Positions 1,157 through 60,886 of a stretch of DNA of 64,000 bases are shown here, in pieces. The stretch is taken from NCBI GenBank assembly GCA_037447655.1, contig JBBHKE010003519.1, forward strand, positions 434,966 to 498,965, given 5' to 3'. The number at the start of each line of letters is the position of its first letter. Position 1 is the stretch's first letter. A program made the translations under genes and the position numbers. The notes below the pieces were generated by a model. That model was not told the DNA's origin. It saw only the letters and a list, made by a program, of their open reading frames with translations, and did no database searches. This DNA is from Zygnema cylindricum (Eukaryota; Streptophyta; Zygnematophyceae; Zygnematales; Zygnemataceae).

Positions 1157-2267
1157 TGTTGAAAAGTGATATTTTGTATTCTACCCTTTTTTTTAGTCTT
1201 GCAGTTCTCATACTTGTTGTAGTCACTGAAAATTGACAAGCAACCATGGCTGCTTTGGACAAATGAGAAGATAGACAGAAGACAAAGCTCTTGCAAAAGT
1301 AGTTGCCACATAGAGGGTTTGATCCTGTAACCTCCGCACGAAGGCTGTAAGGAAAAAGGCGTACGCCTTATCCGTTAGGTCTTAATGAATCGATACATAC
1401 GTTATGTTTCATAACTATTTAAAGATGACATAACGACATATTCCTTTTAGCGACTTACGGAATGAAACGAAACATGGAACGTGTGGTACCGCACGAAATG
1501 CAGTACCGCACGAAATAAATGAAACATACATTTGATTTCGACAGTCGAAATTAAATGTCGCGATCGACGGCTCGCGAAGCAAGAAGAAAATTTAAGAGGT
1601 CAACACGAAATGTTGACCGTCAAAATTCAACGGTCAACACGGAACTTTTACCAGTTTAATTCAGCATTCAACATGTATTTGGCGCGCCGTCAAATCGAAC
1701 GGCTGCAATTGATCACCGTGAAAAGAACCTACGGCAAGCGTGAGTGACGGGATGTCGGAACGACTATCTGGGAGAAGAACGGCGAAATGGGAGGAAATGA
1801 CACGTGGCATCATCCTATAAGATGCTGGAAGAGAAAACGGACAGCATGTCATTAACCTATTTTGCCACGAGGCAGACCGGGAATGGTGCCAAATATATCC
1901 GTACATAAAGTACGGCGGCTGTTGTACTTTATATGCACAATAATTAGGGCACTGCACTTTGATTGGTTTAGAGTAGTTATTAGGAGTTTTCAAGTCTTGG
2001 AAAAATATTGAAAAGTCCTCTCTCCCAGAGGCCATTCAGATATATGTCGTCCTTTTGAACGCCACAACGAAAATGCTCGTGTGAGTGAATCCTGATTATT
2101 TTGCAGCAGACTTACGGGATTCCAGGCTACTCAGATGTGTAGTCAATCAAAGTTTTTGCGTCCCAGGGTGGGACTTATCCACTGTCAAAGTCAAAGGTGC
2201 ATATACTATCCTAGAGGCTTCACATAAGCTGAACATTCTGTGTACCAATGGAGATCACAGAATTACA
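1157..2267 (+). repeat. 3' LTR of copia E1 (type-1 LTR)
   Basis: The LTR starts TGTTGAAAAG immediately after a polypurine tract (AAATAAGGGGAG) and ends ATTACA. Its last 30 bases (ACCAATGGAGATCACAG and following) match the U5 ends of the other type-1 LTRs in this window. It contains the type-1 modules: an antisense tRNA-like unit near its start, a U3 hairpin around 1190-1262 with the TACTTGTTGTAGTCACTGA core, and a conserved U5. The next base is already gypsy A sequence, so E1 inserted into gypsy A. Confidence 0.85.
1295..1385 (-). ncRNA. antisense tRNA-like Pol III unit in E1 LTR
   Basis: On the minus strand, opposite to E1 transcription, the segment reads CCTAACGGATAAGGCG (box A, close to the D-arm of arginine-type tRNAs), then GGTTACAGGATCAAACCC (box-B-like), then TTTT at 1298-1295. 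Order, spacing and terminator fit an internal Pol III promoter unit of about 80-90 nt. No full cloverleaf is evident, so it is tRNA-like rather than a working tRNA. The same module is present in all other type-1 LTRs here that are long enough. Confidence 0.6.
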
Positions 2268-6660: not shown

Positions 6661-7330
6661 CACCGAAGTTTTGTTATTTGTAATAATCTGTTCTGGTATC
6701 CTTCTTCCCATCGCTTCGAAATAGGGAAATGCTATATTATGTCTGCGATATCGGTGGCGCTGGCGAGCAGTTCCGTGGGTGTGTGAGTAGCATAGACGGG
6801 ATAACATCCTGCGACGAAAGCATTATCTTTCCCCATATTCCATAGATCCAGAGGAACCACCACCTTGACTCCTTCGGGATCCTCAGGATCATGAACAGTA
6901 AACTGCTCATTCCACACAGTTAATCCCATATTCACCCTTGTCCAGGTGGCCATTCCCAATAAAATCTCAAACTGCTTACCTTCCACCACCAAGAACGGAA
7001 GTTGAATTCAGACCTTTTGACCCGCGTCAACCGAGATTTCAATTAACATGGCTTTGATAATTCTGTGAACTAGTTGGTTCCCACTGCTCACTCTGCTCAT
7101 GTAGATGTTACTGGGGGAGATTTTTGCTCCAAGTTCCTCGGGCATTTAAAGCAGAGCCGAAGTTGAAATTAGGTTTGGAAGTTCTCCGGTGCAGACCACT
7201 GCATCTTGGTATCCGCCGTATCCGCTAAGTTTAAAATTTCCCGTCCAGTTGAGGATGTGAGCCACAGATAATGTCTTATAATCCTTATCCAGCATAAGAG
7301 TCTTTGGATCTGCTGACCAAAAGACTTACC
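6661..7330 (-). pseudogene. gypsy A aspartic protease region
   Basis: The minus strand encodes DYKTLSVAHILN, then GNFKLSGYGGYQDA, ELPNLISTSAL and later VEGKQFEILLGMATW. This corresponds residue by residue to the protease of gypsy B, where the active site reads DAGVDSGALPNLI. In gypsy A the DSGA position is degenerate (CTGE). The block ends with a stop at 6732 and then runs in the same frame into the methyltransferase, which places the protease directly upstream of the DCM domain in the polyprotein. Confidence 0.7.
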
Positions 7331-9791: not shown

Positions 9792-11791
9792 TGCATCGCC
9801 TCTCCATAAGTTTGAGGTTCATCTTGATGAGATAGTTTAGTTACCTTGTTATTAACCTGTTTTTCTTGCAATCTTTTGCTACTTCTCCTCCCCCCCTCAA
9901 AATCTGAGGCCGGAATAGATGGTTCTCGTGGATTCTTTCGAACAAACTCGACTTCTCCCCTATCCCTTGATTCCGAATCAATTTCCACCACGTCTTCCGC
10001 TTCGAGTAGAGTTGTCACTGGAGTTTCCACAGCCGAGTCCTTTTCGGTCTGATTTGTTCCTGCAAGAATGTCATCTTCTCTAAAACCTGGATAGTTAGGA
10101 AGCTCAAAGTCATCGGAATTTTCTGACTCAAATCTGATTTTTACTGACTTCGTATATTTGAAGGGATCTACAGACTTTCCTTCATCCATAACTACTAGAT
10201 GCTTTACTAAGATTATATCTTCCCTTTTTAGATCATAAACTCTATATCCTTTAACATCTTCATCATATCCTAATAAGTATCCCGGTTTTCCTTTAGGATC
10301 TAGCTTCCAATTGGACCGATCAGTATCTAGACTGAAAACTTGACTGCCGAAAACCTTTAAGTGAGATATGTCTGGTTTCCGGCCTGTCCATCTCTCATAA
10401 GGTGTTTGATCTTTTATAGCTAAAGTAAGAACTCTATTCTTGAGGTAATTAGCACAGTTCATTGCTTCTGCCCAAAACCTTTTTCCTATCTTTTTATCTG
10501 ACAACATACTTCTAGCACTATCACTTAGTGTTCTATTTAACCTTTCAGCTACCCCATTCTGTTCCGGATTTTCTGGAATTGTCTTTTGGTGTTGAACCCC
10601 ATCTTCCCTCAGAAAATCCTCAAACTGGTTAGAAGTATACTCTCCACCATTGTCACTCCTTACTCTCTTGATTGGAGTTTCATGGAGTTTTTCGCTCCAT
10701 GCTTTATATTGTCTAAAACAATCCTCAGCTTCGGATTTGTTTTTCAAAAAATATACCCGGGAATACCGAGACCAATCATCAGTTATAGTCATCATAAATC
10801 TCTTCCCCCCCGGTGAGGGCACTTTAGCCGGTCCCCAAATATCTGTGTGTACTAGATCTAGGATTTTTTCTCCCTTGTAGGTGGTTGACTTAGGAAAGGG
10901 TAATCTGTGTGCTTTACCTTGAGCACATCCACTACAGTCACTTATATCATCACTCTCACTGAATTGAATCCCTTCCACCACTCCCATCTTTTTCATCTCT
11001 CTTAACTTATCTAGATTCACATGCCCAAGCCTCTTATGCCACATCATAATATCATGAACACCAGCATAATAAAGTTTCTTCTTTTCATTACTTAAGATCA
11101 GCCTAAACATCCGATGGCTACCTTTCTCAGCAATGAAATAGACATCATCCTCAAAACTAGCAGTAAAGACTCCTTCCCTAGTGCTAGTAAAAAAACCCTT
11201 ATCATCTAATACTGATGTAGAGATAAGATTTTTGTTTAGCTCCGAAATAAACAATACATCGGAGAATGTTAATATGGATGACTTTCCTTCTACTAACACT
11301 TTTAGATCTACCGATCCTACAAGAGTAGTGGTGACTATCCTCCCATCCCCGTATTCTATCTCTACGGTGGGAATCTTTCTTATCTTAGTGAACAGGTGTC
11401 TATCGTTACACATGTGCATGGAGGCACCTGAATCTACAATCCAGCCTGCTTCACCTTTCAATCCACCGTAAGCACATTTCTGCCTTCGTGGAATTTCGAC
11501 CTCATTTTTCGCCTCCAACTCCTCATCTAAAAGGAGCTCATCGTCTTCGTCCTCGTATTCAGCCTCAAGTACTTGTGTCACAAGGGCCATTTTCTTTCCT
11601 CTCGGGGTACCACCGGTCTGCCCCTCCTTTAACCGAAGCTCGTTTAGCTTAGTGCACTCTGCCATATAGTGCCCCGGTTTCTTACAAAAGTGACATAGAC
11701 CTTTGGGAGCCCTTGGTTCGATCTCATCGGCCTGTTTTTTCTGCTCCCTACCCCCATAGTTTCCGACCGGTTTTCGGGAATCCTTGTTCCT
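9792..11791 (-). pseudogene. copia E3 zinc knuckle, protease and integrase
   Basis: A zinc knuckle CHFCKKPGHYMAEC (near 11700-11650) is followed by the protease active site WIVDSGASMHMC. The integrase has an HHCC finger (HKRLGHVNLDK and CSGCAQGK) and the catalytic D-D-E set in HTDIWGP, RSDNGGEYTS and EQNGVAERLNRT. Its C-terminal region includes PYERWTGRKPDISHLKVFGS and ends with EPQTYGEA. The frame is open from 11665 to beyond the junction at 9791 and then reads out of frame through gypsy gag to 9644. Gag and pol share one frame. Missing RT makes it non-functional alone, but these domains look intact. Confidence 0.9.
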
Positions 11792-12803: not shown

Positions 12804-13334
12804 CAGAAGCTCTCTGGGAGAGAGGGTCCTATCTTCTAAATTTTTCTAAGTCCTATCTCTCTCACAGACTCTATCTACTGATGTACGGAACCAATCAGAA
12901 TTGAGTTCCGTACGCAAAAGTACAGCTGCCGATGTACTTTAGGTACGGACAGTGTACGACATGGCCTAAATGTCGACACATGTCATATCTGGATTCGGTA
13001 CCATAATCTCTGGAGATTCCTCGATCCAACGAAATTTCGCCACGCGTCATCCGATGTGGCGATGGCCACAAACCGCCGAAATCTTCCTCCGCGATCTCGG
13101 CGCTAATCCCGGCCGTCCGATTAAATTCGGATTTAATCGTAGCCGTAATAAATACATGCGCGATATTTGTTTCACTTATGAAACAAATGCGCGGTATTGA
13201 TTTTGAGTCCATACCGTAATCCGTACTCTATGTATTACTGGATCTATGTATCCCGTAATGTGTTATAGTTAAATGAATTATCGTACAAATAGTCATATAA
13301 TTAATTATCAAACTATATAGTACGTAACACTACT

Positions 13335-13424
13335 GCTAGACCTAACGGCTAAGGCTACCGACAACTTCCTGTCTGCCGGCCGGTAGGTACAGGGATCAAA
13401 TCCTGTCGCCGGCGCATAACTTTT
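13335..13424 (+). ncRNA. antisense tRNA-like Pol III unit in E3 LTR
   Basis: Reads CCTAACGGCTAAGGC (box A) and GGATCAAATCC (box B) and ends with TTTT at 13421. A GCCGGC inverted repeat brackets the box-B hairpin. It lies on the strand opposite to E3. Confidence 0.6.
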
Positions 13425-13624
13425 AATTAAATAAATAAACCCTAATATTAAATTCCCGTAAACCTCAGGATAGCCAAGGTAGCCATGGCTCTAGCTTCCT
13501 CCCCAACTTCTCAGTGACTGCGACAAGTTTGAGAGTTTGGAGAGAGAAGTTAGAGATAGACTGCCTCGACTTCTATATTTCTTTTCATACCTAGAAAATA
13601 CTAATAAAACCATTAGTTTCTACA

Positions 13625-13890: not shown

Positions 13891-15200
13891 GGTCCAATTA
13901 TCTTCCTTTTCCATCGTTCAAAGCTTTCGGGGCTCCACGGCATCCACCGCGACGCCAAACTTCCATCTCCATCCCACCCACAAACCCCGTTGTTGGGAAT
14001 GGAAAATGTATTTCTCCTGCCACTCTCCCCTCAAGCTACAAGTTGCCCGCACTGCTAACAACTTTGGAGCCAAGGTAACTATCCCTGACTGAGGAGACTA
14101 TAGACTAGAAAAGGCAAGAGAATGATTAACACCCATGTGACCGCATTCGATCCATGCCCGTCCGGGTAGTCTACACCTCTGGAGTCTAAAATACTTGGTG
14201 CTGCTGTTGTTGCAGGTTGGAATCCCTTTGCCTATTCTTGTTCCTCGACCGTCGGTATTGTCCAAGCTCCTGCCTTGCTATTGAATAGCATTCTTGCCTC
14301 TCCCTTTCGAAATGCATGACTATTGGGGAAGGAAACTAGGGTTGGCAGGGCTTGCGGTGGGGCCTCTAGTTTGTTGCACTATAAGAATGAAGGAAGATCA
14401 TCCTTTGTCACTGGAGTGGCCATCCGCCCTAGTCCAAATATTTGTTGCAGAGTTATCTGGGGATCTGTTTCGTGGTTTTGTAAGAGTTGGTGGAGGACTC
14501 GAGAAGGGATTAGATTAGTCCAATAAGCCGTAACTCTGTGAGCCCTTGATCCCACTTACGCTGCATCGAAAACAAGTTGAGCCCCTAGAACCTCCTTAAC
14601 TTGATTCCAGCTATTAGCGACCTGTTTTCTTTTATCATCTCCCGGATAGACGTTCTCCAAGACGTACCCCACTGGTGTGTCTTGAAGCTTCTGCAGCCGA
14701 AAATTCATAGAATCATCTGAAAGAATTTTTGATTTCCGCTGTCTTGATGTGCCTCACCTTTCCTTGCTAGAGAGTATTCTTGACACCACCATCTTGTTTC
14801 TACCAAATCTACTCGTTCCAGCATGGTTAAATACAGTCCCATGATGTTGTCAACATTTTGGGGAAGACCTCAGTGAGCTATGCAGATTGCGAATACGGGA
14901 AGTTGTTGGGGATAAATTTGGTGAAGTTGTTGTAGTCAGTGTTCACTGAGAGCCCAAGCTTCGACTGACATTTCCACGGCTACATAAGACTCCACCTTAT
15001 ATCTTGCCTTTGAAACAGCTTCTAGGTTCAAGCTGATTCTAGAGAAAAGTGATTGTATCCGGATTCCGGAATATGGAACTGATAATGACACCACTTGTCG
15101 ATTAAATTTTTGGCTTTCGTGCAGATCCTCCAAAGATTATGACCGAGGCTTGGAAGTCTTATCCTTGGCAAAAGTAGCAGAGAAAGACTAGTCCACTTCC
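13891..15200 (-). pseudogene. gypsy B C5 DNA methyltransferase (decayed)
   Basis: Colinear with the gypsy A enzyme. KFNRQVVSLSV and YKVESYVAVEMSVEAWALSEH mark the motif I side. The motif IV equivalent is RWWCQEYSLARKGEAHQDS, with catalytic Cys kept but Pro and Gly lost. EEQE followed by AKGFQPATTAAP marks motif IX. Several stops and shifts break it. Its position between protease and RT is the same as in gypsy A and C. Confidence 0.78.
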
Positions 15201-15900
15201 CGCCAATGTGTGGATACCTGTGATAATATGCTTTAGTATCCCTCTTCCCTCCGCTTCGAAATAAGGAATTGCTATGTTACCATGGCGATGTTTGTGGCGC
15301 TGACGAGGAGTTATCATGGAGTGTGGGTGGTATAAACAAGATAACATCCGAAAACGGAAGCATTGGTTTTCCCTCGATTCCATAAATCTAAGGGTACCGC
15401 CACTTTGGTCCCCTCCGGATCCTTAAGGTTCTGAACTGTAAGCTGCTCTATACACACACTTAAATCCATATTCAACCTTTTCCAAGTGGCCATCCCCAAC
15501 AAAATTTCAAACTGCTTACCTTCCACCACCTAGAAGGGAAGTTGGATTTGGACTCGCTGACCCGTGTCATCGAAGAACTCGATTAGCATAGCATTCATCA
15601 TCCCGTGGACCGGTTGGTTCACACTGCTAACTCTGCTCTGGCATATGTTGTTGGGGCAGATTTCCGGCTAAAGTTCCTCATGCATTTGCTGCAAAGCCGA
15701 AGTCATTATTAAATTTGGGAGTGCTCCGCTGTCAACACCTGCATCGTAGTATCTTCCGTATCCGTTGATTTTGAAATTTCGTGTCTGATTCAGGATAAGC
15801 GCCACGGATAACGTCTTATAATCCATATCCATCATAGAGGTATTTGGGTCTGCGGAGAATGAAACTGACGTTGATTGGTCTGCCAAGTTTCTTTTCTCCC
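15201..15900 (-). pseudogene. gypsy B aspartic protease
   Basis: The frame 15886-15668 reads DYKTLSVALILNQTRNF and DAGVDSGALPNLIMTSALQQ, with the D-S-G-A signature of retroviral-type proteases. The next frame contains VEGKQFEILLGMATWKRLNM and VAVPLDLWNRGKTN. This copy keeps the protease active site that gypsy A has lost. It lies directly upstream of the methyltransferase in element order. Confidence 0.75.
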
Positions 15901-18900
15901 CTCCCGAGTGAATTTCCGTGCCTCAATGAGGATTTCTTCAGGCAGGTTACGGACAAGGCTAGTGTTTTCACATGGGTGAGGGCGTAGTGCATGAGGTGCC
16001 TTACTAGCATAACTGCTGGTTTAGAGGAAGGAAGTTGAGTTTTTGGTGATGAAATGGGGGAGCCTGGTTCGACCAGTTTCTCTGGCTCCCCCCCCCTACT
16101 TCCTCACTTTCATTGTCTGGTTCCTCTGCGAGAAGCATTTCTGGTGTGTTATCCTTCGGGTGTTCTACCATATACCCGTCGAACTAATCTTGGTTGCTCT
16201 GTTTGTTGTTCTCTTTTACCTATTTTTCCTTCTCCCTTTTTTTATTGGTTTTGTAATCTTTGAATTCGGGAGGCAATTTCTTCACGGTAGGGGGAGGCAG
16301 ATTGGTGGGTTTGAATCCAAGATCGATGCCGTTGTTCAGAATCACCGACAGGGGAGAGAAAGACAGTGGTCGCGTGACCTTTCTGTTATAGTCCACTTGG
16401 TCTAGTTTCTGCTTGTCCTTTCTTTGCTCCAATGTTGAGTTGCAAAGTTGTTTGCGACTGTCTCCCACGCCTACATTTCAAGCTCTTGACACAAAGGTAC
16501 GAGCATGGTGAGCCTTAGGAGGTTCCATATCCCACCCCATAACATCGTCATGATCACCAACCGCTATGGATTCTTTTTTAAGCTCTGCTAGCTTTTGTAG
16601 TAACCAGTGTTTCCTACATTGGAGTTTTTGAGGGGCCGTCGAAGCAAGAGTCTGAGAGGAAGATTCTAAACGCAGGGCGGCTAATTCTGTAGCCATCGCG
16701 ACCATTTGCTTGCTTTGTTGCTGGATGGTATTCTCTGGTGTGAGTCTTGCTTGACTTGCTGGTGCTCCTTCTAGCTCTTCCATTGTGCGACCCCCTTAAA
16801 GGTAAAGGAGCAGGAGGGAGAGAGGATTAACGATAGTTTTTCCTCTGCAGCGAAACAAACCGTACTACATCATCTCCTTTGGGACCCCATTCTTTCGGAA
16901 ACATTAAACCTACTTATATCCCATGAAGCCGCAAGCCTCACACTTGGAGCCCTCACTGGTGTATTTTCTCTTTAACTCATTGGATATTTGCGCATCATCA
17001 AATTTTGGGAGTTTGATTTGTCTAAACTGAGCTTGTGACATTTTGGCAAATTTGGACAGGGGAGTTGGACGGTAATTGTCCTTGGTTACTATGTTTTATC
17101 TTCTGATCCTCCTCCTTCTTTCCATTTCAGGTGTTTCTTTGCCCTTTAGCTCTCTCATTTTCCCATTCCTTTTTCTTTAGGGCAAGTTCAGGTTTGAGAT
17201 TTTGTGGGCAGCCCTTCCACCTATGACCAGTTTTGCTGACAGTTCAATCAATTGTACAGGAAGACTCGGTCGTCGGCCTCCATAGTTGGTTATGATCCGC
17301 TATCAATCTCCTGCTTCCCCTTTAGCTTCCGCAAAGCTAGAAGTTCCACTGCTTCCTCATTGTCAGAATGCATTTCTCCGACAATCCCTGCAAAACTTCC
17401 CCTGCCTTTGCATATTACCGCCTTTTCTCTGGTTTCACTTTGAACCAAGTGGTCGATGAGTTTCATGGTGATCAGCAAAATTTCTTTAGCAGATGGAATG
17501 ATATCCTAGATTGCTTGGAATGCAATCATATTGTCGAGTGTAGTATGCCCCATGGGCTTGAAAGAATTCTGGACTGCGATGAAATATTTGGTATCCATAG
17601 CCGAAAGTTTGGTCTTTTGACAAAGGCTTAACAGTGTGTTAAAAAGTGTTTGTGGTGTCTCACTTTGGAGACAATGGTATTCGTAAATTCCTTGATAGCA
17701 TATTCATTCCTCTCGGTGAAGAGGAGCCTCTAGATGTTCAAAAGAGTGGTGCACGGTGTAGGGTTTGCGACCATCGTAGCAATAGCCCGAGCAACCTGGA
17801 TAGCATGCAATTGATTGACAAAAGCTAGCCCCTGTGCTTGTAATTTTACGTCTTCTGTGAATGTAGGTGTGATTGGAGTCACTACAGCCGAAGCCAGATC
17901 TGCTTCCGCTTGGAAGACAGTTGCGTCAAGAATTGGGTTTGAAATCTTGATGTTTCGCGCCATTAGAATGGTTTCTACCTCTTTCAAGTCCACCAAAGCC
18001 CCCCCGAAGAGGTAGTTGACCATCATCGGGAAAAGTGTAGTCTTGAAGTCATCAAGGATTTCTCCTCCTCTATACTTTTTTATATTGGATTGTGTGAAAG
18101 ATTCCCACAACTGTTCAAAATCGGAGAATACAATCCGTGAACTGGCCCCTGTAAAAATCCTTACGTCCCTAATTTCTTTCTCCTCCTCCGCAAGGTTGGT
18201 GAACTGGTCCGAGGAAGGCTTGTAGGAACTAACAAATTGAGCCGGTGAAATGACCATGGATCCTCCTCTTCGAGATCTGAACCGCTTCCACCTCCAGTAG
18301 AAGAGATTGCCCTGAGAGAGGGGGATCCTCCCCCCAATGAGGAAGTTTTTGTTGTTGAATATATATTTAGAGGGTTAGTGGTTCCAACTGGCCTTATTGC
18401 GATCCTCCTGGGTTCAAGTGGTGTCCTAGAACGACGACCGGTTTTGAGAGGTGGAAGATTCAATTTGGGACTGTTCAAATGAGTCCCTCGGAGTGATGAA
18501 GATAAACGAAAAGATGGAGGCCTTTGCCTCGGATACGATGTAAGTCCACGAGCAGTGCGTTCAATCAGGATGAAGGTGGGTTTCAGTAGCTGGATGAGGG
18601 CGATCGGCGATAAGAAGGTGAATAGGTTGCGATGATGGTTTGAAGAAAGGCGAAAACAGCAAGAGTTTGCGCAGCTAACCCAGATGAGGCGACAATGATT
18701 TCTTTTAGGTCGGCCGAAGGCCTCGTTGGCTGGGAAGAAAGAGGTGATGGAGGAGTGGTCGGTCTCAATGAAATGTGAATCCTCTCGTCCGGTTGGAATT
18801 CCACCAACGCTTTTGCAACAGATGAGGCCTCTATCGTGACAAAGGTGGGAGCGTACCAAGGAGAAGCAACAAATTTAGGACGAGAATCTGCACCCAAACT

Positions 18901-19425
18901 CTTCCCATTAGGTCGTGTAATTTCCCCCCGTTCCCACGGAAGAGGAGTATCTCGGTTAGTCTTTGAGAGAGGAAGCCCTAGTTGCGTCTCCTAGATAGGA
19001 GTGGTTCCTTGAATAAGTGTTCTAGGGTACGATCTTGTCATAGGAGAAGTGAGTATTTGCTCGCTGAGAAGCCCACTAGACCTACACCACGCTTCCCGAA
19101 TAAGGTTCAACTCTTGTTCCAACGATTTTTTTTCTTTCAGCCTCTGCTGCTTCCTAGTCTACAGTGACGGGTCCGGCCCCTACCGTAGCCTTACCGGATG
19201 CCAAAACATTTACCAATTCATGAGCCCTGCTAATTACCCTGGTCAAGTTTGCTATACCCAGATCGGGACCTCTGGATCAGGGTCCTAGATTGTTAGGTCT
19301 TGACTGCCACAATCCTCCGGAGGTCGAACAGTTGGGGCATCTGGAGGTGACTCCTCAGATGCGGCTGTTGCGGGAGTAGGGAACGTCTCTTCCCTAACTA
19401 CTGTGGTGAACTTGCCTTTGGTGTC
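15901..19425 (-). pseudogene. gypsy B gag, main part
   Basis: From right to left the reading shows DSRPKFVASPWYAPTFVT (near 18890), AQFVSSYKPSSDQFTNLAEE (near 18250), IVFSDFEQLWESFTQSNIKK and then SETREKAVICKGRGSFAGIV (near 17440). The zinc-knuckle region near 17205-17260 (CQQ, then a shifted GHRWKGC) and 16900-16970 (SEGSKCEACGFMG) is frameshifted. An Arg/Lys/Glu-rich stretch (EAERKKIVGT) near 19130 may be a coiled coil. Many frame breaks. The N-terminus continues beyond TR-GAG1 at 23902. Confidence 0.7.
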
Positions 19426-20662
19426 TGAAATTCTATAGGCTCCATTGCCCACAGAATTCGCAGATCCAAAAGAAGCTAATCTAGATAGTGCCAACTCCAA
19501 GTTGATATAAACCCAAATAAATGATCCCTTGACAATAAGAACCCCAATACACCTTCACCCCTGTGAAAAGAAGACCTTTTGTGTGCTCAGTTCCACCACA
19601 GAATGCAAAGCTTGAATATGTGATTTGGACAATATTCCCCACTTTGACTTTCCCACTGAATAAGTGCCACCCTGACCGCCACGCAAAGACTCTGACCGAC
19701 TACTCCCTTGTGTAGCTTAGTCTCCCCTGAGTCGGCAGCAAAAAGAATCACTGAATTTGCTCACCCGAGCATTAAGTTATGGCTGGTCAAAGATGACCTT
19801 TATAGTTACAAGCTCTCTTAGAGAGAGGTACCGAAATATCACTAAGTCTTAGTCTGCCTACTCATGACTACCTACTACTAAACCCTAGTCCAATAGGAAC
19901 ACTATATAGTACAAAAAGGTACAATGGGCGATGTACTTATTGTACGACCATTGTACGACAAGGTCTACAAGGTGACACCTGTCAAATCGGAAGCCATGGT
20001 TCCTCCTCCCATCTTCTCCGGTATCAAATAATGTGGCGCCACGTGGCACTGCGTGACGCTATCTCCGTATGCCGCCAAAAGCTCACTTCGCGTGGCGGCT
20101 ATAATGCCGGCCGTCTGATCAAAACATATTTTACACGGTTCAGATTCGCGTACATGCAGGAATTGCTCCTTTTGGTTAGTCTGCTATTAATTAGTTATTG
20201 CGTTAACGTTTATGTATTTATGGAACCCCTCACGTGTAATGTTTCGATAACGCCTTATTAATTAAGGCTTACATCTACAAATATAACCACAGACCATGGT
20301 TCAAATCTGGTTTGGAGCAGTTTTTGGTTATTTGTTAGTTTGTTAGAACTCTCTTCTTGTCCATGTATAAATACCTATTGTACCCTACATATGCCATCGT
20401 TTACTCTAAGCTATAGGCTAAAGCTAACGTTTGAGTAGGATGTAGGTACCAGGATCAAATCCTGGAACCGTCATAACCATTTTGGTACAAACTACGAATT
20501 AGTCTATCCTCTTTAGACAGCCATGGCTCTAGCTCTCTCTGGTCTTCAGTGACTGCAACAAGTATGGGGACCGGAGAGAGTTGAGCGAGAAGTAGGTTGC
20601 CTTTGCTGACTTACTCTATTTATTTTTCCAATACAGACCTAGAAAATACATAAATTTCAACA
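19426..20662 (-). repeat. 3' LTR of TR-GAG1
   Basis: Begins TGAAATTC and ends TTTCAACA in window orientation, followed by the reversed purine tract CTCCCC. It is about 98% identical by eye to 22664-23901. It carries the type-1 modules: TATA with GGTCAAAGATGACC near 19793, antisense tRNA-like unit, and U3 hairpin at 20518-20590. Confidence 0.92.
20405..20483 (+). ncRNA. antisense tRNA-like Pol III unit, TR-GAG1 3' LTR
   Basis: Box-A-like TAGGCTAAAGCTAACG is followed by CCAGGATCAAATCCTGG, a 5-bp stem with a 7-nt loop exactly like a tRNA T-arm, then TTTT at 20480-20483. If transcribed it would run toward the internal region, antisense to the element. Confidence 0.6.
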
Positions 20663-20675
20663 CTCCCCTTTTTTT

Positions 20676-22683
20676 CTAGTCTACTTTCTTTTCAACTCCC
20701 ACTAAAAATATATATAAAAAAAAAAAATTCCTTCTTTTCTTTTTCCTCTTTCTTTTCTCCTCATAAAACTTTAAGTGAATACTCTCGTATTTTAAAAGGT
20801 CCGTTAGATGACCTGAAATAAACATTCCATCTTGCTGATCACATATTTTATTAAGCATACAATTTTCCATAAATCCAAGCAAAGATTTTATCCCACTCAT
20901 CTCTTTTCCATCCACACAGAATCCGATTTCCCTCTTGCAATTAAAAAAACCATCACCATCCCCAATCCGCGACACACAACCAGATGCTATCCCTTTTACA
21001 GGCACACCACCATAAATGCCATCACTCCCATTTGTGATGTCAAAACCATTACCCCCCATATTTATCGTTATATCAAGATTCCCCACTAAGTTCCTCATAA
21101 AATCTACATCTTCCGAGCTCATATTTTTATCCATGATACTCAACCCATTTTCTGAACTTTCCTCACTCTCTCCCATGGAATTCTTTCCACTATCACTTTC
21201 TATAATGATTCCCAAAGAGTATTTCTCCTCCCCTAAACTTTTCATTAAATATTTCTTTTTACCCCTATCCTTTAAAACCCCCTCTAGTTTTACTTCTCCC
21301 CTTTCCTCCAAATCCGTTGAAGTCTCCCTTTCCAACCAATTTTCTGTTTCCAAAATATTTATAAAATTATCCTCATTATTTTTATTTTTCCCTTTTTCAT
21401 TTATGTATCCTAGATTTGACTTTCTCATTTCTAAGTCATACTTTTTACACTCTTTCACATCCTCATCATTTCTAACTCCCTCAAGTACCTCCCTTCCTCT
21501 TACTTCCCTTATACCTCCAAAAGCACATCGTTGCTTTCGTGTAATTTTTGTGTACTTCTCTCTCTTCTCCATTCTACCGATGTGAAGAAGCTCCAAAATT
21601 TCTTCATCCTCTTCATCCTCTTCCCCTTCTTCCTCCTCTTTCACATTCCAACTTCTAAGTTCTTCCAAACAAGGACACTCCTCTATATAGTGACCCGGTT
21701 CTCTACAAAAGAAGCAAACACCCTTTTTAAAAGCTCCCCTTTCTTTTCCTCTCATCCTCTTTCCACCAAAATTCCGATAAGGTTTACCTTCGTCTTTCTT
21801 CGTCTCATCACGCTTCCACTCGTCACCGCCGTTCCTCTCATCACGCTTCCGCCAATCACCACCAGCTGTAAATGCAGTTACCCTCTCACTTCCCCTACGA
21901 AGCTCCAAAGTGCTTTCCCTCACAAGAATTATCCCCATGGTAAAGCTCCAAGTCCATGAGGAGCCATCCATTGCCTGCATACGTTTAATGATGTTTTCGT
22001 ACTCATTTGGGAGTTTCATGAGTAGTGTATTGATCTTTCTCTCCTCAGATTCTACATACCCCGCACTAGCAGCCTCAACATATAACGCAGCAATATCATT
22101 GCAAAACTCTATCATGTTACCGCATTTATAAACATAGGCATCTATTTCTTGTTTTACTAACTGCTGCCTCTGAATAGTCTCACTCTTATAAATCTGCCTT
22201 AGTGTTTCCCATATTTCCGAAGACTTGGTAAGACTTAAAAGAGTGATAGCTATGGACTTAGACACATATCTAAGTATAAGATGTTTTGCTATAGTGTTTT
22301 TATACTCCCAAATTTTAATATCATTTTCTTCAGTTTTACTTATAACCCCTCTAAGTGAAGATGTGGCGGAGAGCATAGCTCCCCTCACCATAAGTGTCCC
22401 TTTATCCTTCTCCCCTATTTCCCCATCCACGAAAAGGTTTTTCCCTTCACCTTTTGATTCATCTGAACTCCGGTTTATATTTTGGGCAGCCTCAAATGAT
22501 TCTCCATAGTAACCTCCTCCAAAGCCAGGTGGCGGACATCTCACTTGTCCCGAAAAAAATTCCCCATAAGTGCTTCTCGAAAAGCAATCCCTCCATAATA
22601 AACTCCCAATAAATGAAGTTTGTTCCATCGAACAAAGGCACCCTAGATGGTGGGCCTATAACCTGAAATTCTATGTGCTCCAT
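20676..22683 (-). CDS. TR-GAG1 gag with remodelled pol remnant
   Basis: The natural start is the ATG at 22683 inside the LTR (MEHIEFQVIGPPSRVPLFDG). A seven-T run on the coding strand (A run 22553-22559) puts this N-terminus out of frame with the main 650-residue frame (22628-20676). The main frame holds gag helices, a CCHC knuckle CFFCREPGHYIEEC (about residues 305-318), an acidic patch, and KQRCAFGGIR where protease would start. A 270-residue tail follows. It still aligns with the ends of RT (SLGEEKYSLGIIIESDSGKN) and RNase H (KEMSGIKSLLGFMEN, HLTDLLKYESIHLKFYEEK) but has lost the YVDD box and the RNase H AEY residues. The tail is Lys-rich. A capsid role for the first half is well supported; the role of the tail is unknown. 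Confidence 0.85.
22649..22663 (-). other. primer-binding site of TR-GAG1
   Basis: The minus strand reads GGTTATAGGCCCACC, abutting the LTR, with one mismatch to the complement of the iMet tRNA anticodon arm. It also encodes part of gag (VIGPP). Confidence 0.75.
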
Positions 22684-23901
22684 TGCCCACAGAATTCGCA
22701 GATCCAAAAGAAGCTAATCTAGATAGTGCCAACTCCAAGTTGATATAAACCCAAATAAATGATCCCTTGACAATAAGAACCCCAATACACCTTCACCCCT
22801 GTGAAAAGAAGACCTTTTGTGTGCTCAGTTCCACCACAGAATGCAAAGCTTGAATATGTGATTTGGACAATATTCCCCACTTTAACTTTCCCACTGAATA
22901 AGTGCCACCCTGACCGCCACGCAAAGACTCTGACCGACTACTCCCTTGTGTAGCTTAGTCTCCCCTGAGTCGGCAGCAAAAAGAATCACTGAATTTGCTC
23001 ACCCGAGCATTAAGTTATGGCTGGTCAAAGATGACCTTTATAGTTACAAGCTCTCTTAGAGAGAGGTACCGAAATATCACTAAGTCTTAGTCTGCCTACT
23101 CATGACTACCTACTACTAAACCCTAGTCCAATAGGAACACTATATAGTACAAAAAGGTACAATGGGCGATGTACTTATTGTACGACCATTGTACGACAAG
23201 GTCTACAAGGTGACACCTGTCAAATCGGAAGCCATGGTTCCTCCTCCCATCTTCTCCGGTATCAAATAATGTGGCGCCACGTGGCACCGCGTGACGCTAT
23301 CTCTGTATGCCGCCAAAATCTCACTTCGCGTGGCGGCTATAATGCCAGGCGTCCGATCAAAACATATTTTACACGGTTCAGATTCGCGTACATGTACGAA
23401 CTGCTCCTTTTGGTTAGTCTGCAGTTAATTAACTGTTGCGTTAACGTTTATGTATTTATGAAACACCTCACGTGTAATGTTTCGATAACGCCTTATTAAT
23501 TAAGGCTTACGTCTACAAATATAACCACAGACCATGGTTCAAATCTGGTTTGGAGCAGTTTTTGGTTATTTGTTAGTTTGTTAGAACTCTCTTCTTGTCC
23601 ATGTATAAATACCTATTGTACCCTACATATGCCATCGTTTACTCTAAGCTATAGGCTAAAGCTAACGTTAGAGTAGGATGTAGGTACCAGGATCAAATCC
23701 TGGAACCGTCATAACCATTTTGGTACAAACTACGAATTAGTCTATCCTCTTTAGACAGCCATGGCTCTAGCTCTCTCTCTGGTCTTCAGTGACTGCAACA
23801 AGTATGGGGACCGGAGAGAGTTGAGCGAGAAGCAGGTTGCCTTTGCTGACTTACTCTATTTATTTTTCCAATACAGACCTAGAAATACATAAATTTCAAC
23901 A
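22664..23901 (-). repeat. 5' LTR of TR-GAG1
   Basis: Partner of 19426-20662, with small differences clustered near 23280-23520. It contains the gag start codon at its internal end and the U3 hairpin at 23757-23830. After its end comes GTTTC, likely target duplication, then gypsy B gag. Confidence 0.92.
23644..23721 (+). ncRNA. antisense tRNA-like Pol III unit, TR-GAG1 5' LTR
   Basis: Same organisation as the unit in the 3' LTR, with CCAGGATCAAATCCTGG as T-arm and TTTT at 23718-23721. From this copy a transcript would run outward into flanking DNA. Confidence 0.6.
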
Positions 23902-24219: not shown

Positions 24220-24916
24220 TGTTGAAATTATTTTTATATGGTATTTTCTAGGTCTAAATTTAATACAAATAGAAAAAGGAAAAAGGCGGACAGCTTGCCT
24301 CCACCTCCTCTCTCTACCCACCATACTTGTCGTAGTCACTAAATGATAGAGAGGGTGGCTGAGCCATGGCTGTCCTAGCTTAAGCAGGCAGGGCTAAAGG
24401 GTGACTTATGTCACTCTCAACAAAAGGTTGAGTCCAGCAAGACTCGAACCTCTAACCGGCAGGGCGCGGCGTAGCTGGTAGCTCTAAACAATCTGTCGTA
24501 TAAGTCCGTTAGGATACATTAGGTTTGATAATTATATAAACAGTGTTAAAACCATGATTCTAATTAACGGGATAACGAACAAAAGAACATAAAACCAATT
24601 TTATATTGTGCGAACATTATCTCGCACAAAATCAAATGAATCGGACATTTGTTTTGACAGCGTACATTTAATGTTGGATTTACATCCGACTGCGTATATA
24701 ACTGCAGAGATCACGGAATGGCCACTTTGGCGTTTATGGAGGTGGCATGACGTGGCGCCACGCGGAGGGATGACATTTGATCGCCCTATAAAAAAAAAGT
24801 TCTCCAAAATAAGTTTAGTGGAATTTCCTAAGGGTTTTCTCATGAGAGAGTACTGAAACAACAATCTGTATCTTTCGTCCACAAGTGCCTTATACAATAG
24901 AGTTTGTCCAGTTTCA
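24220..24916 (+). repeat. plus-orientation type-1 copia LTR
   Basis: Starts TGTTGAAATTA and contains the type-1 U3 hairpin (24300-24400, arms CCACC...CTCTCTA against TAGAGAG...GGTGG) and an antisense tRNA-like unit. The 3' edge is uncertain; CAGTTTCA at 24916 is the best TG...CA end. No internal region follows, so it is a solo LTR or a truncated copy. Confidence 0.65.
24422..24515 (-). ncRNA. antisense tRNA-like Pol III unit in LTR 24220
   Basis: On the minus strand CCTAACGGACTTATACG (box-A-like) is followed by GGTTCGAGTC (good box B) and TTTT at 24425-24422. It lies antisense to its LTR. Confidence 0.6.
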
Positions 24917-28508: not shown

Positions 28509-29472
28509 TGTAAATGTGTGACCTCCATTGGTACACAAAATGTCCAACTTATGTGAAATCTCTAGGATAATATCTGCACTTTTGACTTTGGCATAGAATA
28601 AGTCCCACCCTAGGACGCACAAACTTAGATCGACTACATCCTTGTGTAGCTTGGACTCCCTTGACTCCTTAGCAAAAAAAATCACTAAAATTGCTCCCTT
28701 GAGTATTAAGTTATGTCTGACCAAAGTTGGCCTATAAATACAACTGCTCTCTTAGAGAGAGACAGAAAAACCTAAAAATGTTATAAGTCCTAAACTCCCT
28801 CTTCAAGTCTACTACTAGTGTACCTAGCCAATCAGAAGATTGTAAAGTAGAAAAAGGTACAGGTAGTGTTGTACTTCTTGTATAGCCATAGTACGGCATG
28901 GCCGTTCCGCTGACGCGCGTCAGTTCTAGAGCTGTAGTTGCTCCTCCCGCGATAACCCCTGTCTAACCATGTATTGCCATGTGTCATCCGCCAACATCTG
29001 CTCCGCAAACCGCCAAAATACCACTCCTGTATTCCAACTCCTTTTGAGTCGTTCGATCTAATCCGCACATTCGATTTCGTCCCTCGAAATTGAAAGTCAT
29101 TTTGTAATTTCAGTGCAATCCGGATTTCGTGCGCTCCGGCATATTTCTATGTTCAGTTTGTCCCGTAACTAGTTAAATGAAATACATTGTGAGATATCTG
29201 TTTAAATAAATATCATACCATATACATGTATTGGTCTCACAAGACCTACCGGATAAGGTAAACGGTTTATCACTATGGCGGTCATTCGGAGGTCACCAGT
29301 TCAAATCCTACTAGTGACCGCCTATATTTTGCAGAAAACTACTCTATTCATCTACCTATCTCCTTGGCTGCAAGGGGCAGCCATGGCTGCCTGCAAGTCC
29401 TCATTGAATACGACAAGTATGAGGGTTGCAGTAAGAACAAAAGATTAAGACTTTAAAATACCTTCTACAACA
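28509..29472 (-). repeat. 3' LTR of copia E5 (type-1 LTR)
   Basis: Runs from TGTAAATG to CTACAACA and is followed by CTCCCCTTATTTT (reversed purine tract). The U5 end contains ACCTCCATTGGTACAC, the counterpart of the gag-start region. The TATA region near 28720 has GACCAAAGTTGGCC. The U3 hairpin is at 29370-29440. Confidence 0.85.
29240..29330 (+). ncRNA. antisense tRNA-like Pol III unit in E5 LTR
   Basis: CCTACCGGATAAGGTAAACG (box A) is followed by AGTTCAAATCC, a near-perfect box B, and TTTT at 29327. GGCGGTCA and TGACCGCC form an 8-bp acceptor-like stem around the box-B hairpin. It is one of the best preserved units. Confidence 0.65.
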
Positions 29473-35944: not shown

Positions 35945-37084
35945 TGAAACTCTATGGGGTCCATTGTCCCACAAAATGGCGATCAAAGAAGCCGGACTCA
36001 AGTTTATGTAACCCAAGTGATCGACACTTTGAAAATCGAGCCCCATTATAGTTTCATCCCTGTGAAATAAGACTTTCAGTGTGCTCGTTCCACCACAAAA
36101 TGCAAAGTTAGAATATGACTTTGGACACATTCACCCACTTTTTACTTTCTTAGATATGACCACCTCGTCAAAATTTCGAACGACTATACCTCCTTGTAAC
36201 ATAGACTCCCCTGAGTCCGTAGCAAAAAAAATCTCTGAATTTGCTCCCCTAAGCTAGTTAAAGCTTGTCAAAGTTGACCTTTTATACAAAAGCTCTCTCA
36301 CAAAGAAGCGGCTACCTACTATTTTTTTAAGTCCTAATCCGCACTCTAAACCCTCTACTAATGAGGTACGACACCAATCAAAGGATTGTACCATACATAA
36401 AGTACATGTGCTGGAATACTTTCAGTACGGAATTTGTACGGCATGGCCATGACGATGACACATGTCACATCCGTACTTGTTATCGTGCGCTCCGGAGATT
36501 CCGCAAACCCGTAAGATGTTGCCACGTGTCATCCGAAGTGGCGATGACCGAAAAACGCCAAAACGCCCACTCCGTGATATCAGCTCCTACCATGGTCGTT
36601 CGATCATGACCGACCTTTAATTCTAGCTGTCGAAATAAATATGCAACACATTTGTTTCGTGCGGTAACCAAATTCGTACTAAATCTAACTATGTATATAT
36701 GTTGAGAATCTTATTTTTTATGTTAAATGAATTAGTTTACGTGTTACCTTTTAAATACATATCAAACCATATAAATCTCTGCACAGGTCCTAGTCTATGC
36801 ACAGGTCCTAGTCTATAGGCTAGAGCTAACGGCTACAGGCAAATTGACAGATGACAGATGACTGGTACCAGGATAAAATCTCATTTTTGTCAATCTCCCT
36901 TTTGGTAAATCTTCTAAAGCTACTCCCTGTCTCTTTAGAGGGCCTATGCAGCAATCGCTCTAGCTCCCTATCTAGCCTTTAGTGACTACAACAAGTGTGG
37001 GGGCTTGGAGAAGGGAAATAGAGGCAGACTGCCTCTGCTCCTTTCTATCCTAATTCAAACCACAAAAATACTGAAACTTCAACA
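35945..37084 (-). repeat. 3' LTR of TR-GAG2
   Basis: TGAAACTC to CTTCAACA, then CTCCCC. It has the TATA/W-box palindrome near 36265 and the U3 hairpin at 36945-37020. An 18-bp direct duplication (GCACAGGTCCTAGTCTAT) lies at 36781-36816. Confidence 0.85.
36803..36903 (+). ncRNA. antisense tRNA-like Pol III unit, TR-GAG2 3' LTR
   Basis: GGCTAGAGCTAACGGC and GGTACCAGGATAAAATC form boxes A and B, with a mutated B. ATTGACA and TGTCAAT form an acceptor-like stem. T runs lie at 36884 and 36900. Confidence 0.5.
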
Positions 37085-39125: not shown

Positions 39126-40270
39126 TGAAACTTTATGGGGTCCATTGTCCCCAAAAATTCGCAGATCCAAAGAAGCTAATCTAGGTAGTGCTAACTCCAA
39201 GATTATATAAACCCAAATGAGTAACCCTTAACAATCAAAAACCCATTATAGCTTCACCCTTATGAAATAAGACTTTCTGTGTGCTCAATTCTACCACAGA
39301 ATGCAAAGTTAGAATATGACTTTTGGACACATTCACCCACTTTGACTTTCCCTTATATATGCAGCTACTCTGGTAGGCAAAAACTCTCACCGACTATACC
39401 CTTGTGTAGCTTGGACTCCCTTGAGTCTGTAGCAAAAATAATCTCTGAATTTGCTCCCTTGAGCAGTTAGTTATAGCTGGTCAAAGTTGACCTTTTACAC
39501 AGAAGCTCTCTCGCAAAGAAGCGGCTACCTACTATTTTTCTAAGTCCTAATCCACACTCTAAACCCTCTACTAATGAGGTACGACACCAATAAAATGACT
39601 ATTCTGTACATAAAGTACATGTGCCGGAGTAGTTTCTGTACGGAATTTGTATGGCATGGCCATGACGATGACGTCTGTCACATCCAGACTTGTTATCGTG
39701 CACTCTGGAGATTCCGCAAATTAGTAAGATGTTGCCACATGTCATCCGGAGTGGGGGTGACCGAAAAACGCCAAAACGCCCACCCCGTGATATCAGCTCT
39801 TACCATGGCCGTCCGATAAAGACCGGCTTTTAATTCTAGCCATCGAAATAAATATGCAGCACATTTGTTTCGTGCGTTAACCTAATTTGTACTAAATCTA
39901 ACTATATCTATATGCTAAGAATCTTATTTGTTACGTTAAATGAATTAGTCTACGCGTTAAATTTAATATACATATCGAACCAAATATATCTTAGCATTGG
40001 TCCTAGTCTATACGCCACAGTTAACGGCTACAAGCTAATTGACACACGGTAAGTTCTAGGAACAAATCCTGGGTTTGTCAATCTCCTTTTTGGTAAATCT
40101 ACCAAAGCTACTCCTTTTCTCTCTAGGGGTCCTAGGCATCCATGGCTCTAGCTCCCTATCTAGCATTCAGTGACAGCAACAAATGTGGGGGCTTGGAGAA
40201 GGGAGTTAGAGGCAGACTGTCTCTCCCCTTTTGTATCCTAATATAGACAAAAAATATTGAAATTTCAACA
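39126..40270 (-). repeat. 5' LTR of TR-GAG2
   Basis: TGAAACTTTATGG to ATTTCAACA, partner of 35945-37084. The palindrome GGTCAAAGTTGACC lies near 39479 and the U3 hairpin at 40135-40210. Type-2 copia sequence resumes at 40271. Confidence 0.85.
40000..40091 (+). ncRNA. antisense tRNA-like Pol III unit, TR-GAG2 5' LTR
   Basis: Box-A-like CCACAGTTAACGGC and box-B-like GGAACAAATCC, with stem TTGACA/TGTCAA around them and TTTTT at 40087-40091. Confidence 0.55.
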
Positions 40271-52258: not shown

Positions 52259-53273
52259 TGGACTAGAGAATACAAGAAGCCCCTAGATAGTTATTAACTA
52301 ACCCACTTTTAATGGCAACCACTGCTACCCGAGTAGACAAAAAGACAATATGACTGCACCCCTGTGCAGCTTGGACTCCCTTGAGTTTATAGGAAAAAAA
52401 ATCTCTGAAAACGCCCAACCAGACGATAAGTTATGAGGCAGTAAAAATGCCAATTTGTACAAACTCTCAAAGGGAGAGGTGACTACCTACCAAAATTTTC
52501 TAAGTCCTGATTCCCTCTAATAACTTCAATCTACTAAAGTACGGACCAATCAGATTAGTGTCAGTACCAAAAAGTACTTTTACCGCTGTACCTTTTGTAC
52601 CGCCTATGTATGACAAGGCTATTAAGCGGAAGCTTGTCTGCTTTTCACTCGTCCGTACATTCCTTGGAAATCTTGTGACCGAATGTCATCTCTCTCGTGG
52701 CTCCAGGTCAAGCCACGTCACAAAACGCCAAAGTGACCACTCCGAGATTCCGACGATGATGTGCGCCGTTGGATTTGGAGCGAGGCGCAATCTTAGCCGT
52801 AATAATTACTTGCGCGACATTTGTTTCTTGTCGAAACAAAATGCGTGGTATCCGTTTTGAAATAGTGTCGTACTTCGTAATTTCATAAATCTGTATCTAT
52901 GCACGCCGTATACAGTTTTAGTTAAATGGATTTGTTCCTCCCTAAAAATATATATATCTATCACATACTATAGCACTTAGCATTGGTCCTTATCTAATAG
53001 GATAAAGCTGACAGCTATCGGCCAACTTGACGAACTGCAGGTACCGGGATCAAATCCCGAGTCCGTCATGTAAAATTTTAGTAACCTACTAAAAATAGCT
53101 GTCTGTTGAACTAAGGCAGCCATGGATCAACCACCCTCTCTATCCTTTAGTGACTACAACAAGTATTGGGGCTAGAGAGAGGAGGTGGAGGCAGGCTGTC
53201 CATCCTTTTTCTTTTTCTTTTATACTAACATATTAAACCTATAAAATATTCTAGAAATCTATTAATTTCAACA
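52239..53273 (-). repeat. 5' LTR of copia E7 (type-1 LTR)
   Basis: TGAAACTCTGTC to AATTTCAACA. U3 hairpin at 53110-53195 with complementary arms CCACCCTCTCTA and TAGAGAGAGGAGGTGG. The TATA-proximal palindrome is weaker in this copy. Followed by a fragment of another type-1 LTR. Confidence 0.83.
52985..53079 (+). ncRNA. antisense tRNA-like Pol III unit in E7 LTR
   Basis: GGATAAAGCTGACAGC (box-A-like) and CGGGATCAAATCCCG (T-arm-like hairpin with 7-nt loop), with TGACG/CGTCA stem and TTTT at 53076. Confidence 0.6.
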
Positions 53274-53625
53274 CATGAATTGTTACTCTTCGTTAGTTTG
53301 GTGTTAATTAGCCGTTTTGTTAATGTTTATTTATTATTGAAATCCGTCACGTGTATCGTTTCGTAGCGCCATAACGGTTAAGGTTCTCGGCTAAAAAGAA
53401 TCCACAAGTTGCAGGTTCAAATCCGGACTTAGGCAACATTTTGGTAAAATATCATCTACTTCAAAATCTGCCACTTTCTAAATATGGCGGCAGCCATGGC
53501 ATGCCTTTGATCCTCACTCTCTCGCTTTAAATTATATCTAAAATAAAGAAGTGAAACATTAATTACCTCTTTTCAACAATTCATTTTAGACCTAGAAAAT
53601 ACTAAAAGAACCATTAATTTCTACA
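53274..53625 (-). repeat. U3 fragment of an older type-1 copia LTR
   Basis: Similar to 23400-23901 of the TR-GAG1 LTR (TTAATGTTTAT, CACGTGTA.CGTTTCG) and ends ATTTCTACA at 53625. E7 inserted into it. It directly abuts the truncated gypsy C methyltransferase. Confidence 0.75.
53365..53442 (+). ncRNA. antisense tRNA-like Pol III unit in LTR fragment 53274
   Basis: CCATAACGGTTAAGG (box A) and GGTTCAAATCC (perfect box B), GTTGC/GCAAC stem, TTTT at 53439-53442. The best box B in the window. Confidence 0.65.
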
Positions 53626-59962: not shown

Positions 59963-60886
59963 AAGTATCCAGCATATATGAAGCCTCTAAGATAACATTT
60001 GCCCTTTTCACTTTCCCACTGAATAAGTGCAGCCCAGACACACAAGTGTTCTAACCACTTTCACCCTTGTGAAGGCCCGACTCCCTTCTCCCCTGAGCCG
60101 AACGCAAAAAGAATCAGTAGATTTGCTCCCCTGAGCAATAAGTTATTGTTGGCCAAAGATGACTTAAAAATACAAAAGGTCACCTGAAAAGAGGCCCCTC
60201 AAAAACTTTTAGTCCCTAAACCTCTACTCACAGCTACCTACTATTAAACCTTAGACCAATGGGATGACTGTATAGTATAATATAATACAAGAAGGTACAC
60301 TGGCCACTGTACTCCTTGTATGACCATTATACGACATGACCTTCTGGTTGACACTTGTTAGCTTCGGAGTCATGGTTCCTCCTCACGTATTCTCTAGTGG
60401 CCAATGACATGCCGCCACATGGCATTGCGTGACATTGTTCCCGAATAGCCGCCCAAAGATCATTCCGGTTTGGCGGCGTGAATGTCGACCTTCTGATCAC
60501 GCTAATTTGTAGGGTCCAATTCCCGTCTGTTCATTTCGTACATTTATATGTACTGCCTCATCCGTTCATTCCGTTAAATGAATTAGCCGCCATGAAATTC
60601 GTTAAATACTTATCACGTCCCATATATGTTTCGATACTTCTACGACTTGGCGGATAAGGCGAAAGGCTCTTCCGTACGGTAGTTACCCAGAATGGCCCAA
60701 GATCAAGTCCTAAAGTGACTGCCTAACTTTTGTAGGGGATTGTTCCTCCTACTCCATTGGTTTGTCTCTCTATCCGCCTAAGGCAGTCATGGCTACCTGT
60801 AAGTTCTCAATGACTACGAAAAGTATGCGGGCTCACTAACATCAAAGAATAACAAAAGATAGACATACAAAATACCTTTTTCAATA
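59942..60886 (-). repeat. 5' LTR of copia E8 (type-1 LTR)
   Basis: Begins TGTGACCTTCATTGG and ends near TTTTTCAATA. It shows the type-1 U5, a diverged TATA palindrome near 60155, the antisense tRNA-like unit and a weak U3 hairpin at 60780-60850. Confidence 0.75.
60640..60731 (+). ncRNA. antisense tRNA-like Pol III unit in E8 LTR
   Basis: TTGGCGGATAAGGCG (box A), AAGATCAAGTCC (box-B-like), and a 9-bp stem GGTAGTTAC/GTGACTGCC with two wobble pairs, with TTTT at 60728. Confidence 0.6.

Follow-up and report, generated by a model that had tools for sequence, protein, structure and literature searches.

Copia elements and LTRs of the window

The window, by which we mean the whole stretch of 64,000 nucleotides of Zygnema cylindricum DNA that was analysed, holds many copia elements, which show the gag, the integrase domains and the LTR pairs of the Ty1/copia group. 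Domains of the copia gag or integrase region (Retrotran_gag_2, gag_pre-integrs, rve and SH3) are present in three of the five ORFs scanned. In elements A (19425-23901) and B (35945-40270), LTRs of 1.14-1.24 kb flank an interior of only about 2 kb. Element A contains a 659-aa ORF with a copia gag and without a pol domain, so that gag-only elements coexist with pol-bearing ones. The LTRs of A start with TGTTGAAATTT and finish with AATTTCA; the site behind them, GGTTATAGGCCCACC, resembles the anticodon part of the initiator tRNA-Met. Primer sites on the anticodon region of a tRNA have been described for fungal elements in the covered parts of PMC10886601.

LTR C is followed by a primer-binding-like site and then, on its own strand, by a pol ORF (9644-11791) that carries integrase domains, and thus a coding element bears the unit described below. 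LTR E is tied to a coding element by the similarity of its interior to the pol DNA of C. Among the 120 matches listed, relatives of the pol reach 42% identity at most. LTR E forms part of a nested insertion (53180-53600), its start lying within LTR F, some 85 bases upstream of the unit of F. The window also contains a repeat of about 4.3 kb with 73% identity (5460-9776 and 14003-18295), in which the ORF 17730-18374 gave no Pfam match, and an inverted repeat of 465 bases with 87% identity (27015-27478 / 27614-28071), a possible DNA-transposon end or hairpin.

An antisense tRNA-like unit in the U3 region

All 11 LTRs of the window with a U3 contain, on the strand opposite to the element, a box A-like sequence, a box B-like sequence and a run of at least four T (Table 1), situated in U3 at about 200-290 bases from the LTR start. 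The initial annotation had placed an antisense tRNA-like module in each of these LTRs, and we find it at all 11 places; the 11 LTRs represent nine insertions because the units at 20405 and 23644, and those at 36803 and 40000, belong to LTR pairs. The individual motifs hold less strictly than had been described. Five of the 11 units have the box B GGWTCAAATCC unaltered (starts at 13393, 20452, 23690, 53047 and 53414), and the other six depart from it by at least one letter (GGATCAAACCC, GGTTCGAGTCT, AGTTCAAATCC, GGATAAAATCT, GGAACAAATCC and AGATCAAGTCC). The 15-base box A, CCTAACGGATAAGGC, is exact at 1365-1379 but in this one unit of the 11 only, and the T run, which had been put within about 15 bases of box B, always has at least four T but mostly starts 14-18 nt after box B.

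Two further features of these LTRs were absent from the initial annotation. A TATA-like element lies upstream of box A; of the 11 main units, seven match TTTAAATA at seven or more of its eight letters, and the remaining four (C, B5, E and F) at only six. Element A has a second antisense unit in each of its two LTRs.

Table 1. Antisense units and paired LTRs of the window
Feature	Position	Strand	Remarks
Unit in LTR L1 (+ strand LTR)	1295..1390	-	box A 15-mer 1365-1379 exact; box B 1315-1325; T run 1295-1298; TATA-like 1416-1423
Unit in LTR C	13330..13424	+	unit named in the initial annotation; weak TATA match (6/8)
Unit in 3' LTR of gag-only element A	20399..20483	+	TATA-like 20366-20373
Second unit, 3' LTR of element A	20246..20325	+	box B GGTTCAAATCT; TTTTT
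Unit in 5' LTR of element A	23637..23721	+	TATA-like 23604-23611
Second unit, 5' LTR of element A	23484..23563	+	
Unit in LTR G (+ strand LTR)	24422..24519	-	TATA-like 24533-24540
Unit in LTR D	29234..29330	+	TATA-like TTTAAATA 29201-29208
Unit in 3' LTR of element B	36803..36903	+	weak box B GGATAAAATCT; local duplication before box A
Unit in 5' LTR of element B	39997..40091	+	box B GGAACAAATCC
Unit in LTR E	52986..53079	+	primer-binding-like site next; interior resembles pol DNA of C; E inside F
Unit in LTR F (second LTR subtype)	53359..53442	+	box B GGTTCAAATCC
Unit in LTR H	60635..60731	+	TATA-like 60601-60608
3' LTR of element A	19425..20662	-	98% identical to 22663-23901
5' LTR of element A	22663..23901	-	ends TGTTGAAATTT ... 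AATTTCA; primer-binding-like site next
3' LTR of element B	35945..37084	-	81% identical to 39126-40270
5' LTR of element B	39126..40270	-	

No tRNA gene was found in the window by ARAGORN or by Rfam at the gathering score, and the eight weak Rfam matches obtained there at E values up to 10 are all to families other than tRNA. As judged by these two programs, the units have neither the cloverleaf nor the acceptor stem of a functional tRNA gene. The acceptor-like stem noted earlier for several of them does not appear as a general feature of their 5' ends in our reading of the predicted folds. A generic tRNA consensus, allowing up to three mismatches in box A and up to one in box B with TTTT behind, matches the two strands of the window at 10 places, nine of which are these units or the second units of element A, all of them antisense. 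Units L1, B3, B5 and H are missed at this setting, and a looser one (two mismatches in box B) gives many matches elsewhere in the window.

Occurrence and orientation in the genome

The set of LTRs was enlarged from the 352.8-Mb assembly independently of the module, using a motif of the R region that lies 550-650 bases from the unit. This motif has 5057 genomic matches, which are motif matches and not a count of LTRs, compared with 14 for the reversed control. Sixty LTR places were picked by hand from 100 matches listed, and 58 of them were long enough to be scored. A template derived from the LTRs detects the module in 44 of these 58 further LTRs, as 45 antisense units and no sense unit. At a score of up to 3 the generic consensus matches antisense in 28 and sense in 1 of the 58 LTRs (0.8 per shuffled set), and at a score of up to 4 antisense in 42 and sense in 7 (8.9 in the shuffles). 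The 14 LTRs in which no unit was detected are truncated, interrupted, rearranged or decayed: by reading, the U3 region is lacking or interrupted in seven (L027, L032, L043, L044, L057, L061 and L065) and rearranged or decayed in the other seven (L011, L020, L022, L023, L036, L037 and L068). At L044 a tandem array with the palindromic core TTAGCGCTAA (about 380-700) lies beside the LTR fragment.

The motifs of the unit were also counted directly. The box B sequence GGATCAAATCC occurs at 6050 genomic sites, against 125 for its reversed control. Placements of T4 at 9-21 nt after this sequence number 6163 (overlaps counted) compared with 289 for A4, the corresponding reversed controls giving 65 and 16, and T4 is present at 90 of the first 100 box B sites listed. 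Among 100 places listed, at least 11 same-strand pairs of units are 5.39-5.41 kb apart, as expected for the two LTRs of one element. The exact box A occurs 87 times genome-wide. Reading 28 of these sites in context revealed the U3 motif on the side and at the distance expected in 25, a loose CCATGG match only in two, and a truncated sequence in one. Box B (up to two mismatches) accompanies box A in 25 of the 28, TTTT follows within 30 nt in 21 (7 are without it), and a site like TTTAAATA with at most one mismatch lies 20-60 nt upstream in 26. No free, non-LTR SINE-like copy was found among these 28 of the 87 sites, and a free SINE family is without support in them.

Architecture of the unit

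The units have the layout of a type-2 Pol III gene, with box A followed by box B at a tRNA-like spacing and a T run behind. The start-to-start distance between the boxes is 54-55 in 41 of 62 scan rows and mostly 44-50 in the F-type units and in element A. For the flanking signals, 39 representatives of the 64 units were used. In 34 of them a TTTT begins 8-24 nt behind box B, compared with 5 for AAAA and 1 for TTTT in a control flank, and the run is mostly the minimal four T. A match of at least 7/8 to TTTAAATA stands 42-43 nt before box A in 28 representatives and anywhere in the 50-base upstream stretch in 31, against 12 for the reversed stretch. Avoidance of T runs inside the unit gave no clear signal: TTTT occurs there in 2 of the 39 representatives (4.2 expected, with an s.d. 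of 1.9) and AAAA in 3 (5.2 expected), so that any deficit is not particular to TTTT. Unit L1 has TTTTT between its boxes.

The module is present in two LTR subtypes, one with the box B GGATCAAATCC and the other, the F-type, mostly with GGTTCAAATCC. Both kinds are found within one LTR in element A and at locus L018, and at locus L025 a single unit is accompanied by an additional box B. A fusion of LTR types would explain the presence of both kinds in one LTR.

Comparison of the units with tRNA genes of the host was made on a set drawn from at least 63 RF00005 matches, of which 30 loci yielded 32 non-redundant ARAGORN genes of few isotypes. In these genes each position from -35 to -22 is 84-100% A+T, approximately where the TATA-like block of the units lies. 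TTTT is present within 25 nt in only 11 of the 32 (AAAA in 3) and absent from 21, and T4 is therefore perhaps not the main terminator in this host. The host tRNA genes (L089-L118) often have CATCA or CACA directly before the tRNA. For the box A of the units, tRNA-Arg(TCT) gives the best fit in 32 of 36 cases, with a mean of 12.7/17 against 7.6-8.7 for the other kinds compared; the comparison leans towards tRNA-Arg, since the scan template is itself similar to it and the isotypes compared were few. Most tRNA genes have T at position 54, and the box B of the main LTR subtype has A at the corresponding position. For flowering plants, the covered parts of PMC11700998 report a TATA motif in 22-32% of tRNA genes and a poly(T) signal in 67-72%.

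Conservation in diverged U3 regions

Constraint was analysed in an alignment of 18 U3s that are less than 80% identical; a U3 motif, and not the module, had served to find them. Pairwise identity averages 0.86 for T4, 0.82 for box B, 0.69 for the TATA block, which was delimited only after the alignment had been seen, and 0.62 for box A. The control values are lower, at 0.46 in the spacers inside the unit and 0.48 elsewhere in U3. In 300 half-samples no contrast of a box, T4 or the TATA block with a control was ever reversed. Windows of the same length that are equally conserved number 9 of 298 for box B, 12 of 305 for T4, 24 of 291 for the TATA block and 50 of 292 for box A. By this rank box A alone is not exceptional; many of the rival windows overlap box B or the CCATGG block. 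Most of the equally conserved windows lie on the unit or on the CCATGGCT block, the other strongly conserved stretch. Further conserved motifs of U3 are ACTTGTYGYAGTCACTGA, which was used to find the alignment rows, and CCATGGCTGCC; a conserved stretch lies, for example, at 13511-13531 (-), with the CCATGGCT motif about 45 bases on.

Constraint on the boxes and the T run in a larger set of LTRs was the check that the initial annotation had put forward, and its outcome is favourable, clearly so for box B and the T run and less so for box A. The accompanying suggestion, that the unit was captured by an ancestor and kept, gains support from its corresponding place in two LTR subtypes and from the conserved islands in an otherwise fast-diverging U3. 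Chance resemblance to a tRNA gene is rejected by the consensus matches in the window, the genome counts against their controls, the antisense bias and the constraint in U3.

Conservation does not extend in the same way to a folded RNA. On the antisense strand the T-stem, the only stem counted, has Watson-Crick pairs in 125 of 195 cells, which exceeds the slid controls (25-73). A-C combinations (25) outnumber G-U pairs (14), without the G-U excess that is predicted for an antisense RNA fold, and the fold z-scores are alike on the two strands (-1.2 and -1.0). Neither the T-stem pairing nor the two-strand fold energies support a structured antisense RNA as the main object of selection. The minimum-energy folds of the units in LTRs D, H and E and in the 3' LTR of element B have the 3' end paired with a stretch immediately in front of the T-arm, which is thereby closed by an outer helix.

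Possible function of the unit

We consider it rather probable, judging from sequence, that the U3 of these LTRs contains a tRNA-Arg-like type-2 Pol III unit that selection has maintained in copia elements, coding ones included. The LTRs of this copia clade would thus carry, antisense in U3, an internal type-2 Pol III unit made up of a TATA-like element, box A, box B and a T4 terminator, and a Pol III antisense RNA would be transcribed from it. The similarity to tRNA-Arg suggests that a tRNA-Arg-like gene or a SINE head entered the LTR of a common ancestor, and the conservation suggests that it has been retained because recruitment of TFIIIC, TFIIIB and Pol III benefits the element. Promoter, start region and terminator are kept but the body is not; therefore the act of transcription, factor binding or complementarity would seem to outweigh a structured RNA. 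It is conceivable that U3 is in this way held open or insulated from silencing, while the unit yields a short RNA, some 90 nt long and complementary to U3 in the genomic RNA. We put forward more tentatively a fuller proposal, namely that the LTRs of a coding copia clade may serve two polymerases: Pol II would make the sense genomic RNA and a captured unit of the tRNA-Arg type, transcribed antisense by Pol III, would be present in each U3. This unit, a cis-acting part that the LTR requires, would have been kept through many subfamilies and would number thousands of copies in a single genome.

Boxes A and B might instead work as an extra-TFIIIC element, a barrier or chromatin anchor that binds TFIIIC only and has no productive Pol III transcription. 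Such a role is consistent with the boxes being kept while the RNA body is free and without clear structure, and with the many host tRNA genes examined that have no near T run. It requires neither T4 nor a TATA-like block, yet T4 reaches the conservation of box B, and the TATA-like block exceeds box A in this respect; we regard such a role as unlikely. The antisense RNA could also control copy number in cis by pairing with the U3 of the genomic RNA, which would lower reverse transcription or feed small-RNA silencing. As a cis-encoded antisense RNA is complementary by construction, only its promoter and terminator need to be kept, and the confinement of conservation to these parts fits. However, self-limitation would be harder to select at the level of the element, and the analogy with antisense control of Ty1 drawn in the initial annotation is weak: the element shares with Ty1 the idea of self-control, but the control of Ty1 copy number is attributed to a Gag-derived protein, with no Pol III unit mentioned in the covered parts of these papers (PMC4599808, PMC8458377, PMC7055915). 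We think copy-number control unlikely.

We disfavour a functionless SINE or tRNA relic whose conservation reflects shared ancestry only. It has been proposed that tRNA-derived sequences enter LTRs as SINE insertions (PMC10886601, in the parts covered), and several single copies have indeed decayed. A relic should decay evenly, whereas the spacers stand at 0.46 and the boxes and T4 at 0.62-0.86 in the same alignment, which makes this origin of the pattern distinctly improbable. The islands could alternatively be enhancer or promoter motifs of Pol II that are read in sense and merely resemble tRNA boxes. The CCATGGCT block, whose conservation equals that of box B (0.83 against 0.82), would suit this explanation, as would the conserved ACTTGTYGYAGTCACTGA, which however served to find the alignment rows. 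Against it, box A, box B, the T run and the TATA-like block match one tRNA gene in identity, order and spacing, the best fit of box A being a host tRNA-Arg, so that we hold Pol II motifs to be improbable.

Ty1 inserts at tRNA genes, and the unit might accordingly act as a landing site, steering new copies to Pol III promoters and turning old LTRs into targets. LTR E sits in LTR F about 85 bases upstream of the unit of F, and, of 27 genomic 5' flanks, 6 border on a fragment of another LTR by our reading of the matches. These six insertions are spread along the LTR, at positions of about 140, 572, 648, 738, 941 and 954, and do not cluster at the unit (about 200-290); LTR-like sequence lies within 1.5 kb at only 2 of 30 tRNA loci. 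The landing-site role is unsupported by these observations and appears very improbable.

Relation to known Pol III units in retroelements

In tRNA-derived SINEs (SINE2) a degenerate tRNA head keeps mainly boxes A and B, and the units resemble such a head. The LTRs of foamy viruses contain Pol III units. Pol III units are likewise found inside bovine leukaemia virus, where a cluster of them makes microRNAs (PMC4992882, in the parts covered), whereas the units studied here are tRNA-Arg-like and antisense in U3. Cassandra resembles our LTRs in having a Pol III promoter and terminator conserved inside the LTR; unlike them it is a non-coding TRIM derived from 5S rRNA, and its transcription runs from the 5S part of the 5' LTR to that of the 3' LTR, according to the covered parts of PMC10886601.

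Helenus (TRIMp3; Kojima 2024, PMC10886601, in the parts covered) also has tRNA-derived boxes A and B in the LTR, with conservation around the boxes. It comprises several families per genome, and in fungi its primer sites are on the anticodon region of a tRNA. The LTRs described here share with it the tRNA-like sequence with boxes A and B. Helenus is, however, a short non-coding TRIM of 311-1263 bp, and Pol III is proposed to transcribe the RNA of the element itself, which PMC10886601 implies to be sense, its orientation not being given in the parts covered. Here the unit lies antisense in U3 (45 of 45 units), so that Pol III would not provide the sense RNA of the element, and the T run would end the RNA inside U3. 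The LTRs are about 1.1-1.2 kb long (1.14-1.24 kb as measured), at least 11 pairs of units are 5.39-5.41 kb apart, and the family includes elements with gag or pol, as seen in A and beside C.

Known or proposed Pol III LTRs, Cassandra and Helenus, are thus short and non-coding, with a promoter thought to drive the element itself, and not a few LTRs in Repbase contain part of a tRNA, in an orientation that the covered parts of the paper do not give (PMC10886601). The covered parts of the literature searched do not describe an antisense Pol III unit in the U3 of a coding LTR retrotransposon. The difference from Cassandra and Helenus lies in the orientation, the size of the LTR and the occurrence in coding-capable elements (C beside a pol ORF, E by similarity).

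The tRNA-like annotations in such genomes can be parts of LTRs and call for caution. If our interpretation is correct, two polymerases would meet in one LTR of coding copia elements and one genome would contain thousands of dispersed TFIIIC/Pol III sites. The use of Pol III by retroelements, whether for resisting silencing or for self-regulation, would thereby become testable.
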